Positions 11,304 through 47,215 of a stretch of DNA of 64,000 nt are shown one piece after another. The translations under genes and the position numbers were made by a program. Positions within the stretch are counted from its first letter, which is position 1. Every line of letters begins with the position of its first letter. The notes beneath the pieces are model-generated. The model was given only the letters and a program-made list of their open reading frames with translations, searched no databases and was not told the DNA's origin. This stretch comes from an uncultured Flammeovirgaceae bacterium (GTDB lineage Bacteria > Bacteroidota > Bacteroidia > Cytophagales > Cyclobacteriaceae): the NCBI GenBank assembly GCA_937883755.1, contig CAKZYA010000061.1:124001-188000 (forward strand). Reading direction: 5' to 3'.

Positions 11304-12500
11304 TTAGGGCGTAGCCAGCTTATGGTCTTTCACCTGCCTCTTGGGTTTCGCTTTGAACATCAGTGCAATCGCAAAGGCAACGACGGCGATCATTGCACTC
11401 ACTCCGCCTACGGCCTCGTAGCCCTGGCGGGCAATCACTACTCCACCCAACGCGGCACCGATTCCTTGCCCCGTGTAGATCATTGAGGTGTTCATAGCCA
11501 AAGTGAGGGCAGCTTGCGGCGGGTCGGCATTGACAAGAGCTTTTTCAATCACGGGGCCAGTGGCAAACAAAATGGCGGATGATCCGATAATGCTCAGGGC
11601 CATCGGTGCGATCATCTGGCTGGTACCCAGCAGTTCGGGAAACAGAAACCAAACAGAGAATAGGACTTGAATCCCAATGAATGCCCCAAAGAGGATCTTG
11701 ATGTTCTGCGTGAAAGGACGACCATCGGCCATCTTACCGCCAAGCACCAGTCCAATGATAGAACCAACCCCAATGGTAGCTTGCATGGCTCCCAGATAGG
11801 CCCCCTCCAGCCCGGTGACTTCCTCGATAAAGGGCCCGATAAAAGCAAAGATGGGGTAGGCCGCAATGAAGGATATGATGCTCAATACCAAGCTGACTTT
11901 CACTACCGGGAGCTTGATTACTTTAAAGTTGCTGAAGGAAGCTTCGGCGGTGCCGGGTGATATTGGCACCAGCTTGGCAACAAACGGCATTGCCATGAGC
12001 GCGACGATTCCGGCAAAGACGAACGTGGCACGCCAGCCAAAAAGGTCACCCATGACGGTTCCCAAGGGTACGCCCAGAATTAGCGCCAGCGTGAGCCCAG
12101 ATAAAATGAGGCCCAGCGCTTGCCCTTGTTTGTTTTTGGGTACGAGCGAAGCAGCGATGGCTCCCGCCGTTGGAATGACCAGAATAGCGCACAAAGCGGC
12201 CAAAATGCGTGCCGCAATAAATAAGTTGAAGCTAGACAAGAAGGCGGTACCCAGGTTGATCAGTCCAACTAAAAACAATGCGCTCACCAGCAGGCGACGC
12301 CGCTCGTATCTGCTGAAGAAGTTCACCACGAAGGGAGCGGCCATACCACTCGTAATGGCAAAGGCGGTAGCTAACTGACCGGCCACCCCCACGCTTACGC
12401 CTAAGTCACGGGCCAGCTCCGATAAAAGCCCCGTAAATACGTAGCTTTGGGTGCCCACTGCAAACGTGGCCAACGCTAAAATGTAGATCGTTGAAGGCAT
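11304..12500 (-). CDS. MFS efflux transporter (AraJ/DHA1-like)
   Basis: A 398-residue major facilitator protein with twelve predicted membrane helices. The N-terminus, IYILALATFAVGTQSYVFTG with LLSELARDLGVSVGVAGQL, and the loop 2-3 motif RYERRRLLVSALF are typical of the AraJ/NepI/DHA12 type exporters. NKQGQALGLILSGLTLALIL followed by GVPLGTVMGDLFGWRATF matches motif C of antiporters. It probably exports small hydrophobic compounds or sugars. It ends 32 bp before the NmrA gene and starts 3 bp after the DoxX stop, so the three are very likely one transcript. Confidence 0.9.
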   Translation of the reverse strand: MPSTIYILALATFAVGTQSYVFTGLLSELARDLGVSVGVAGQLATAFAITSGMAAPFVVNFFSRYERRRLLVSALFLVGLINLGTAFLSSFNLFIAARILAALCAILVIPTAGAIAASLVPKNKQGQALGLILSGLTLALILGVPLGTVMGDLFGWRATFVFAGIVALMAMPFVAKLVPISPGTAEASFSNFKVIKLPVVKVSLVLSIISFIAAYPIFAFIGPFIEEVTGLEGAYLGAMQATIGVGSIIGLVLGGKMADGRPFTQNIKILFGAFIGIQVLFSVWFLFPELLGTSQMIAPMALSIIGSSAILFATGPVIEKALVNADPPQAALTLAMNTSMIYTGQGIGAALGGVVIARQGYEAVGGVSAMIAVVAFAIALMFKAKPKRQVKDHKLATP

Positions 12501-12503
12501 GGA

Positions 12504-12962
12504 CTAAAAGGTTTTTGCGTCGGGCTGAGGGTTGAACAACAGTAGGTCGACCGAGAGCTTCCCTCCTCCTAGTAAAGCCAATGCGCCACTCATGGCGAGC
12601 ACCAAAAGATGATACTCAAACCCTTCCTGTCCTGCTTCCAACTGCCCCCACCAGTTCATAGAAAAGCCGATATCCCAGTGCACGAAGGTGATCATACCCA
12701 CGAAAAGACCAAAGAGCATAATGGCATTGATACGGGTGGCAAAACCAACAATAAGCAGCAGGCTGCCGACCGTCTCAATGGCAATAGTAAGCCAGGCCAA
12801 GATGATGGGCATACGCAGATATTCAGTGAAGAAGTAGATAAATTGGCTGTACCCTTCTCCCTCCAGCTTACCTATCCCGTGAATAAAGATGATGGTGCCT
12901 AACACGATGCGTAGCATGATAGACGCCCAATTCTCAGATGTATTAAAAATGAGGTATTTCAT
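12504..12962 (-). CDS. DoxX-family membrane protein
   Basis: A 152-residue protein with four predicted helices. The pattern LRIVLGTIIFIHGIGKL in helix 1, then ETVGSLLLIVGFATRINAI and VHWDIGFSMNWWG are characteristic of the DoxX/SURF4-like family. These membrane proteins are often found with redox or detoxification genes; their biochemical role is poorly defined. The stop lies 3 bp from the MFS start, so they are co-transcribed. It is part of the higher-GC island. Confidence 0.88.
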   Translation of the reverse strand: MKYLIFNTSENWASIMLRIVLGTIIFIHGIGKLEGEGYSQFIYFFTEYLRMPIILAWLTIAIETVGSLLLIVGFATRINAIMLFGLFVGMITFVHWDIGFSMNWWGQLEAGQEGFEYHLLVLAMSGALALLGGGKLSVDLLLFNPQPDAKTF

Positions 12963-12986
12963 TGTTCTATTTTTTTATGGTTACTC

Positions 12987-13613
12987 TTATTGAAATTCCA
13001 GGCGGAAAAATAGCCCTGGCTGAAGATCATATTCCCAATCGTTTCCGAATTGAAAATTATTGAGGGCAATACCGGTTTGTATTAGCCCAAAGTCGCCCCC
13101 CAGACGAAACTGCTGAAAGCTAAACAGATGGGTGTCAGCGTTAAAATTGAAGGAGAATTGCCCCTGAAAGAATCCCTTCAACTTCTCCGAGAACTTCGGT
13201 CGATATTGCATAATTGAGAAGACCTCGAAGTCAGGGCTACGCTTAATTTCAGAGGTTACGTTGGCCGTGACGAAGAATTCTTCTCGGTAGAAGCTATACT
13301 GAACACCTCCCAAGGCCACCGCCCTATCTGGAAGTAAGCGGGTTCCTACTGCCGGTCCCCAGTTCTTGAACAGATTGTAGTTCAGCAAAGAGTACGACAT
13401 GAAGATACTTTCCTCACTGTCATAATTATACTCCGCCGTATTCAGGCTAAACAGGCTCAGTTTATACTTATTGTCGAAGGGCTTGATCCACCACGTTTCG
13501 ACGATAAAATTTTCGTCCGTTGCAGCAGTTTCAAGTACCGTCTGTCCGTACAGTGGTACGTGTATGATGAGGCCTACCAAAAGAAAAAGTAGCGTACTAT
13601 AGTATGTTTTCAT
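12987..13613 (-). CDS. Secreted small outer-membrane beta-barrel-like protein
   Basis: A 208-residue protein with a signal peptide (about 1-23, ending PLYGQ). The rest is a series of alternating strands rich in aromatic residues, such as NKYKLSLFSLNTAEY, SIFMSYSLLNYNLF and ALGGVQYSFYREEFFVTANV, ending in LFFRLEFQ. This looks like a small outer-membrane barrel of about eight to ten strands. I do not recognise a named family. It is the first gene of the island operon, with AraC upstream on the same strand. Confidence 0.7.
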   Translation of the reverse strand: MKTYYSTLLFLLVGLIIHVPLYGQTVLETAATDENFIVETWWIKPFDNKYKLSLFSLNTAEYNYDSEESIFMSYSLLNYNLFKNWGPAVGTRLLPDRAVALGGVQYSFYREEFFVTANVTSEIKRSPDFEVFSIMQYRPKFSEKLKGFFQGQFSFNFNADTHLFSFQQFRLGGDFGLIQTGIALNNFQFGNDWEYDLQPGLFFRLEFQ

Positions 13614-45900: not shown

Positions 45901-46374
45901 ATGAACACATCAATAACTGAGGTTCCTAACTATCCTCGAGAGATGCAACAGAAGCCTTTCTTCGACCTGACCTTAGAGATGCTAAACTGCGTACGAGATC
46001 ACCACTTTGATCGCTTAGCTCAAATTTGTGACGATGACTACGGTATTGTAGATATTAATACCGAGGGTGGTTCAGAAATTATTCGTGACCGCGCTGGTTG
46101 GGAAAAGTGGTTTGCCGGACTGTTTAAGACTCTAGACCAGATACAGGCACAGACTTGGTCAGAGATTACCAATTATGAAGCTGAGCAGACTAGCGAAATG
46201 GGCTACAGTGTAGTTGATTTTGATCAGATGTTTATTGCGGGAGACAAGCGAATGCGATTTTCAGTGATTGCCACAATTATCTGGAAAAAGGTGGGTGAAA
46301 TATGGAAAGAAGCCCGGTATCATAGCTCACTTATTAAAGTAGAAGAACTGACAGGTTTGTCAGGAAGTATTTAA
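45901..46374 (+). CDS. SnoaL/NTF2-like protein
   Basis: A 157-residue cytosolic protein with the alpha+beta cone pattern of SnoaL/NTF2-like folds: FDLTLEMLNCVRDHHFDRLA, YGIVDINTEGGSEIIRDRAG, WEKWFAGLF, then strands MGYSVVDFDQMFIAGDKRMR and FSVIATIIWKKVGEIWKEAR. Such folds bind or transform small hydrophobic substrates; no catalytic residue can be assigned. It lies convergent to the rhodopsin gene, separated by a strong hairpin. Confidence 0.78.
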   Translation: MNTSITEVPNYPREMQQKPFFDLTLEMLNCVRDHHFDRLAQICDDDYGIVDINTEGGSEIIRDRAGWEKWFAGLFKTLDQIQAQTWSEITNYEAEQTSEMGYSVVDFDQMFIAGDKRMRFSVIATIIWKKVGEIWKEARYHSSLIKVEELTGLSGSI

Positions 46375-46408
46375 ACAAAAAACGCACTGTGTGTAGATAC
46401 AGTGCGTT
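46375..46408 (-). terminator. Terminator of the rhodopsin transcript
   Basis: A perfect 10 bp stem, AACGCACTGT (46381-46390) with ACAGTGCGTT (46399-46408), 8 nt loop. Read on the minus strand, the hairpin runs directly into TTTTTTGTTT, a good intrinsic terminator for the rhodopsin gene. It may also stop plus-strand transcription. Confidence 0.8.
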
Positions 46409-46441
46409 CTCCAAGTTAGCTGTTAGCTAACGAGTTTGTAC

Positions 46442-47215
46442 TTAAGCATTAACGGTAGCTCGCTCGTCGTAAACAGAAGCATCAGTTTTGCTAGAGCTTA
46501 TTGCAGTAGCATACACTACCAACCCAAAGCCAATCTTATTTACCGCATCACCGATATTGTAGATCAAATCCATATTAGCAGTATCTATACCAGTGAAAGA
46601 TAATAAGTTACCAGGAAGCAGCATGTAACCGATAGGATAGATACCCCAACCAATGAAAGCGAACAAAGCCAGATTCTTAAACCCTTTCTTCACTATAGGG
46701 CTAGCAGACTTGTCAGCTAGTGCTTTAGCTGAACCAAACCATACTTCATAGATAATAACTGCCCAACCTACGGTAGATATGAATCCCCAAATGATGTTCA
46801 TAGTACCGTTATCGCGGTAGAAACCTTCACCAATGTAGCCTGCTACTAGCATCAGTACTGCGGCAGCAATAAATCTCCACATCAATCCGATTTTAGCTCC
46901 TGCTGGGCGAAGCAATAAGTAGAACTCAACGCACATTAAAGGAACAGTTAGTGTCCAATCGATATAGCGAAGGACGGTGGGGTTTTCTCCGGTAATGGTG
47001 TAGTAGTCTCTCATATAGTAATAATGTACGGCAGCAATTCCAGTAATCAGTCCTGAGATTAGTAATGATAGTTTCCACTTACCATCTACACGACTTCTTT
47101 CAAAAAAGAAAAAAATGGAAGCCGCAAACATAGCCATGTAACCTGTAAAAAAGGTAAACGCTACGGGGTCGTCGACGGGTATCTCGACGATGTCTGCAAG
47201 AAGTAAAGTTTTCAT
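46442..47215 (-). CDS. Proton-pumping rhodopsin (proteorhodopsin/xanthorhodopsin-like)
   Basis: A 257-residue seven-helix light-driven pump. Helix 3 reads RYIDWTLTVPLMCVEFYLLL with the D-T-E triad of outward proton pumps: Asp86 (counterion), Thr90, Glu97 (proton donor), equivalent to proteorhodopsin 97/101/108. Met94 at the spectral-tuning site suggests green absorption. His64 matches the proteorhodopsin His75, Arg83 the conserved Arg. Helix 7 has NIGDAVNKIGFG with Asp223 and the retinal Lys227. Helix 5 has IIWGFISTVGW with Gly144 where many proteorhodopsins have a bulky residue; xanthorhodopsin has a matching WGF-S-T, which suggests an antenna fenestration. No blh retinal-forming gene is adjacent. 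Confidence 0.95.
   Translation of the reverse strand: MKTLLLADIVEIPVDDPVAFTFFTGYMAMFAASIFFFFERSRVDGKWKLSLLISGLITGIAAVHYYYMRDYYTITGENPTVLRYIDWTLTVPLMCVEFYLLLRPAGAKIGLMWRFIAAAVLMLVAGYIGEGFYRDNGTMNIIWGFISTVGWAVIIYEVWFGSAKALADKSASPIVKKGFKNLALFAFIGWGIYPIGYMLLPGNLLSFTGIDTANMDLIYNIGDAVNKIGFGLVVYATAISSSKTDASVYDERATVNA

Follow-up and report, generated by a model that had tools for sequence, protein, structure and literature searches.

Carotenoid antennas widen the range of light usable by a rhodopsin, and according to published work many rhodopsins from aquatic environments carry the glycine that permits one. The G178W substitution at this position in Gloeobacter rhodopsin (GR) blocks carotenoid binding, according to the available part of PMC9151804, and a fenestration glycine has been reported for Bacteroidota proteorhodopsins (PMC13043013). 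Two members of the proteorhodopsin family, Dokdonia eikasta KR1 and EinA29G6, form complexes with lutein and zeaxanthin, and KR1 did not bind canthaxanthin (PMC12308411, available sections). In Table 2 of the same partial source, the zeaxanthin ring in Kin4B8 meets Ser208 and Tyr209, KR1 carries Thr and Asp at these two positions, and Salinibacter ruber xanthorhodopsin (XR) and GR combine hydrophobic residues there with keto pigments. The S208A mutation in Kin4B8 cut zeaxanthin binding to 2% (PMC12308411, available sections).

We analysed a rhodopsin gene within a 64,000-nucleotide stretch of DNA (the window, meaning that whole stretch) from an uncultured Flammeovirgaceae bacterium. The original prediction had read its product as a proton pump with a carotenoid antenna. 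Our analysis points to a proton pump that likely binds a carotenoid and is ordinary in doing so, a carotenoid site having already been reported for its group; the window protein is one more likely case of an antenna-bearing rhodopsin.

The window gene is closest to proteorhodopsins

The gene occupies 46442..47215 on the minus strand, where an open reading frame with an ATG start encodes 257 amino acids of the seven-helix, light-driven proton pump type. The product matched Bac_rhodopsin (PF01036, E 7.9e-43), and a genome-wide family search of the 7.6-Mb genome returned this gene as the sole match; NCBIfam gave zero matches for it and for the SnoaL-like neighbour described below. Alignment placed the retinal Schiff base lysine in helix 7 (Lys227, 46535..46537, minus strand, as are all codons of this gene given here). 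It also confirmed the predicted D-T-E triad in full, with Asp86 at 46958..46960, Thr90 at 46946-46948 and Glu97 at 46925..46927, together with Met94 (46934..46936) at the spectral tuning position 105 of proteorhodopsin. Asp86 is at the position of the Schiff-base proton acceptor and Glu97 at that of the proton donor, and Met94 presumably indicates a green-absorbing protein.

A sequence search of solved structures returned 9jov (E 7e-71) and 9jou (E 7.6e-71) as the closest. The bit score fell from 241.8 for 9jov (Proteorhodopsin) to 113.1 for GR, 80.8 for Kin4B8 (PDB 8i2z) and 79.8 for XR (PDB 3ddl). For an AlphaFold2 model of the protein (18-row alignment, mean pLDDT 85.8), the best structural match was zeaxanthin-bound NM-R1 (9jou; Z 30.7, 51% identity, 230 residues superposed at rmsd 1.6), with Kin4B8 (Z 25.4) and XR (Z 25.2) lower down. 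The structure ranks agree with the scores that the window protein is nearer to proteorhodopsins than to xanthorhodopsins, a placement based on these two measures, as both trees that we made consist of proteorhodopsin rows. By sequence the protein fell outside the xanthorhodopsin subfamily (the XR/GR group); XR belongs to that other subfamily and is far more distant (80 bits versus 242 for the NM-R1 type chain).

Judged from its residues and relatives, the gene product is a proteorhodopsin of the Bacteroidota clade that would pump protons outward. That it encodes a light sensor or a pump for some other ion appears very improbable to us, given the full D-T-E triad, the retinal lysine and the close kinship with the proton pump NM-R1; no transducer was seen among the neighbour genes examined. 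The one feature that might favour such a role is gene location, since the rhodopsin gene lies on a different contig from both blh and crtY and many relatives have one of the two adjoining. Over 153 rhodopsin loci (a collection in which some loci are repeated, some are short and some hold rhodopsins of other types, with each neighbour group named by one member), blh adjoined the rhodopsin gene in 78 and crtY in 28. Both were absent within the 1.5-kb flanks of the four loci of the window's genus (L001 and L003-L005).

Two congeners (L026 and L027) had an additional N-D-Q rhodopsin of sodium-pump type, compared with the single rhodopsin match in the window's genome. A search of plasmids with the rhodopsin returned eight records, all of them distant matches below 60% identity. 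Alignment of the rhodopsin upstream DNA from the window and three congeners showed nothing clear apart from one short block of conservation close to the start.

The helix-5 glycine is common to the clade

The helix 5 segment IIWGFISTVGW (residues 141-151, 46763..46795) contains Gly144 (46784..46786). The original prediction had matched this segment to XR. In a MAFFT alignment with XR (the L059 sequence, identical to PDB 3ddl over residues 1-273), Kin4B8 and GR, Gly144 fell on XR Gly156, Kin4B8 Gly153 and GR Gly178, that is, on their fenestration glycine and not away from it. By alignment, the match to these three glycines is homology and Gly144 is the fenestration position.

The same residue had been proposed to set the protein apart from many proteorhodopsins, and this did not hold. 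Gly occupied the fenestration column in 113/113 distinct D-T-E proteorhodopsins, 10/10 distinct D-T-E xanthorhodopsin-type rows and 15/15 distinct N-D-Q rows of sodium-pump type. Because all 113 distinct D-T-E proteorhodopsins have it, Gly144 does not discriminate within Bacteroidota proteorhodopsins, and we rejected it as the mark of an unusual one. Six rows of other rhodopsin types had Phe (3), Tyr (1), Trp (1) and Gly (1) in this column. The blue proteorhodopsin 4knf had Phe in our alignment, unlike the available part of PMC9151804, which gives Phe for the green type and Trp for the blue. The proposed contrast with the Dokdonia pump, thought to carry Phe, also looks wrong, given that Dokdonia eikasta KR1 forms complexes with xanthophylls (PMC12308411, available sections); we dropped it on these published data and not on an alignment of the Dokdonia sequence.

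Carotenoid-site residues are partly kept

Two further residues of the site are Thr148 (46772..46774; XR Thr160, Kin4B8 Thr157) and Tyr197 (46625..46627; XR Tyr207, Kin4B8 Tyr204), the latter being the conserved site tyrosine as defined in the available sections of PMC12308411. For the twelve residues of the XR chromophore site, PMC3587595 names, in its available part, the seven that are common to GR. Five of these seven are kept in the window protein, as Gly144, Thr148, Asn181, Ile195 and Tyr197 (XR Gly156, Thr160, Asn191, Ile205 and Tyr207), as is XR Met208; the remaining two are changed, XR Leu197 to Phe187 and XR Met211 to Pro201. Asn181 (46673..46675; Kin4B8 Asn188) occurred in four of the 113 distinct proteorhodopsins, namely the window protein and three congeners, and Kin4B8, GR and every one of the ten xanthorhodopsin-type rows likewise have Asn at this column.

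NM-R1 (PDB 9jou; residues read from the identical stretch of 9jov) is of the same clade as the window protein and has the D-T-E triad, the fenestration glycine, an equivalent of Tyr197 and Met at the tuning site in common with it. It differs in having Thr at Pro201, Pro at Gly202, Gly at Thr148, Thr at Asn181 and Trp at Leu184. With Kin4B8, a member of the xanthorhodopsin family, the window protein shares Gly153, Thr157, Asn188 and Tyr204, whereas Ser208, Tyr209 and Tyr191 of Kin4B8 are replaced by Pro201, Gly202 and Leu184. KR1 is likewise a proteorhodopsin with a carotenoid site and has Tyr-Met at 204/205, but carries Thr and Asp at 208/209 where the window protein has Pro and Gly (PMC12308411 Table 2, available sections). 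In place of polar residues at Kin4B8 positions 208/209, the window protein thus has Pro201 and Gly202, followed by Asn203, and in these residues it departs from the 3-hydroxy-xanthophyll site of the Kin4B8/KR1 type. As the ring contacts Ser208 and Tyr209 of Kin4B8 are Pro201 and Gly202 here, the bound pigment may be something other than a plain hydroxy-xanthophyll.

We also considered that the rhodopsin works without a carotenoid, the glycine being an ancestral residue kept clade-wide for other reasons. The glycine may reflect history or packing, because it is invariant in the 15 N-D-Q sodium-pump rows as well as in the 113 D-T-E proteorhodopsins, and the Thr148 column is more variable (Thr in 98/113). 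Yet Tyr197 has its equivalent in 113/113, clade members bind zeaxanthin, as seen from the title of 9jou for NM-R1 and from the available sections of PMC12308411 for KR1, and xanthophyll genes are present in the genome. A pigment-free protein is to our minds quite improbable, and binding of a carotenoid by the window protein is likely.

Retinal and carotenoid genes of the genome

Xanthophyll genes in the same genome had been suggested as a check on the antenna, and both crtY and a CrtZ-like gene were found. One Blh gene, for retinal, lay at C5:219234 and scored over the TIGR03753 cut-off; crtY (lycopene cyclase) lay at C4:134272, and PF18916, the other cyclase type, had zero matches in this genome. 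A carotenoid cluster was present on contig C58 (locus L094, G000:C58:262000-281900). Its CrtI/CrtD-type desaturase was over the cut-off (NF058655), and its CrtW-like gene (NF045690, 230.6 bits against a curated cut-off of 350), its CruF-type protein and its MerR/B12-binding regulator, nearest to CarH, were below the NCBIfam curated cut-offs. A phytoene/squalene synthase family gene (PF00494) had HpnD as its best NCBIfam match, again below the cut-off, and a 149-aa CrtZ-like hydroxylase (PF04116) was without an NCBIfam match; IspH and an ECF sigma factor completed the set. The names of the CrtW-like, CruF-type, CarH-like and CrtZ-like genes and of the synthase come only from Pfam families and cluster context. 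The gene set would suit a flexixanthin-like product, presumably a monocyclic carotenoid with a 3-hydroxy-4-keto ring. The CarH-like regulator and the ECF sigma factor (12177-13076 and 11240-11752 of L094, minus strand) suggest light-controlled carotenoid synthesis.

Proposed working of the protein

We consider it probable, with some reserve, that the protein is a proton pump with a xanthophyll in the Gly144 gap that passes light energy partly to retinal. Retinal would be bound to Lys227, and the proton would be accepted by Asp86 and donated by Glu97. With Gly at residue 144, the helix 5 wall beside the retinal ring would be open. A xanthophyll of the cell's own making would place one of its rings in the gap, close to Thr148, Tyr197 and the helix 6 end, as zeaxanthin does in Kin4B8 and, as we infer, in NM-R1, and retinal would receive at least some of the light energy that the carotenoid absorbs. 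The antenna prediction draws support from the site residues, from the zeaxanthin-bound nearest structure and from the genes for retinal and xanthophylls; what it has lost are the distinctiveness of the glycine and the Dokdonia contrast. Counting against it are Pro201 and Gly202 in place of Kin4B8 Ser208 and Tyr209, together with the drop in zeaxanthin binding of the Kin4B8 S208A mutant.

A carotenoid in the same gap might instead act as a photocycle accelerator or a stabiliser and hand little energy to retinal. KR1 argues for energy transfer: apart from canthaxanthin, the carotenoids tested gave the same behaviour in this Bacteroidota proteorhodopsin as in Kin4B8, and KR1 receives energy from astaxanthin (PMC12308411, available sections). 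Salinixanthin, however, binds Kin4B8 without energy transfer (PMC13093654, available part), carotenoid binding raised the stability of GR (PMC9151804, available part), and photocycle acceleration figures in the title of Fujiwara et al. 2025, Nature Microbiology, as cited in the available part of PMC13043013. We regard a purely accelerating or stabilising role as unlikely, if worth serious attention, and retain energy transfer to retinal as the preferred reading.

A helix-6 variant that tracks CrtW-like genes

At the end of helix 6, beside the carotenoid-ring site, the window protein has Leu200-Pro201-Gly202-Asn203 (46607..46618), a variant (PGN) that tracked CrtW-like genes. A CrtW-like gene was present in 32/35 PGN rows versus 10/80 other rows among 115 proteorhodopsin rows, which came from 39 of the 49 genomes of a first set, 50 of a second and 26 of the 30 of a third; the motif was spotted in the first set, before the other two. 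The count leaves out genomes with other rhodopsin types, and G227. Ten xanthorhodopsin-bearing genomes were dropped from the first set, one of which (G330) had a CrtW-like gene, and four entries that repeat earlier genomes (L118, L150, L164 and L166) were dropped from the third, in which L108 and L152 are two rows of one genome. CrtW-positive denotes a match of at least 181 bits, none of which reached the 350 bits that NCBIfam sets as its curated cut-off; genomes whose best match was weak (about 22-34 bits) were scored negative, and the count covers CrtW and not the other ketolase, CrtO. LPGN without CrtW was seen in L005 and L145, MPGN without CrtW in L046, and CrtW without PGN in L007, L048, L057 and seven Hymenobacter rows. 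As a comparison gene, CrtZ-like gave a strong match in 33/39 proteorhodopsin genomes.

Over 407 column-residue splits spanning the whole protein (89 rows), the strongest associations with CrtW were those of Asn203 and Leu200 (phi 0.66 each). Columns 140 and 204 came next; fifth was column 8, an N-terminal position distant from the site, and columns 184, 199 and 159 followed. Column 184 corresponds to Kin4B8 Tyr191, a residue able to meet ring B (PMC12308411 Table 2, available sections). Five independent pairs differed in PGN, and on average CrtW agreed in 3.4, disagreed in 0.0 and showed no difference in 1.6 of them, which was not significant in a sign test (median p 0.25). Starting from CrtW gave eight pairs, with 2.6 agreeing, 0.0 disagreeing and 5.4 showing no difference. 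The tree for these pairs was built by a quick method with the helix 6 end left out and has several long branches; the pairs lie on supported branches. In simulations of traits on the 89-row tree, Asn203 showed an association as strong as the observed one in 0.3 to 2.3% of draws. Taking the best split at any place in the protein, this strength was attained in 9 to 39%, and residues 197-204 contained the top split in 8 to 9%, the fastest simulated rate having only 386 accepted draws. With five independent pairs and no significance after correction for the whole protein, the PGN-CrtW link is suggestive, a lead only. It may be new: titles and abstracts listed in our literature search, for papers that were mostly left unopened, held no helix-6/ketolase link, and we do not claim that it is unpublished.

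A broader idea, which we hold tentatively and think doubtful, is that the site in Bacteroidota proteorhodopsins is tuned to the cell's own pigment. PGN lines, the window's included, would take CrtW-made 4-keto rings, for example 3-hydroxy-4-keto rings of the flexixanthin type, lines with polar Thr/Ser would take plain 3-hydroxy rings, and the gain of Asn181 would have moved the genus towards the xanthorhodopsin site. The point to pursue is whether the variant at the end of helix 6 and the ketolase correspond. If the link is true, pigment type could be predicted from rhodopsin sequence, and matching each rhodopsin to the pigments of its genome would make it possible to test which carotenoid is bound in vivo. 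One PGN-type proteorhodopsin (L149) comes from a contig whose title, Candidatus Caenarcanales bacterium, is not that of a Bacteroidota organism, a hint of either gene transfer or faulty binning.

The SnoaL-like neighbour

The convergent neighbour of the rhodopsin gene (45901..46374, plus strand) encodes a SnoaL/NTF2-like protein, as judged from a domain match and a model. Relatives (42-87% identity by tblastn) lay beside rhodopsin in six further loci of the 153, these being congeners L003 (966-1433) and L005 (957-1412), together with L008, L009 (1025-1480), L099 (2735-3184) and L134 (1623-2033), and not in congener L004. The copy in L008 (about 1019-1423) is cut by a stop. In L099 the SnoaL-like start codon overlaps the rhodopsin stop, and in L009 the SnoaL-like gene starts at the rhodopsin end. 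None of the relatives was matched on plasmids, and none was confirmed in viral contigs. The best model (mean pLDDT 83.3, with 42-61 for the other four) has an NTF2-like fold, with 3cnx as the best match (Z 15.9, 122 residues superposed at rmsd 1.7); the 50 rows of this comparison did not include orange carotenoid protein, which is not thereby excluded. NTF2-like folds often have a hydrophobic pocket, and our guess is that the protein could be a partner that handles retinal or carotenoid. Between the two convergent genes, at 46375-46441, lies a hairpin with a T run that resembles a terminator.
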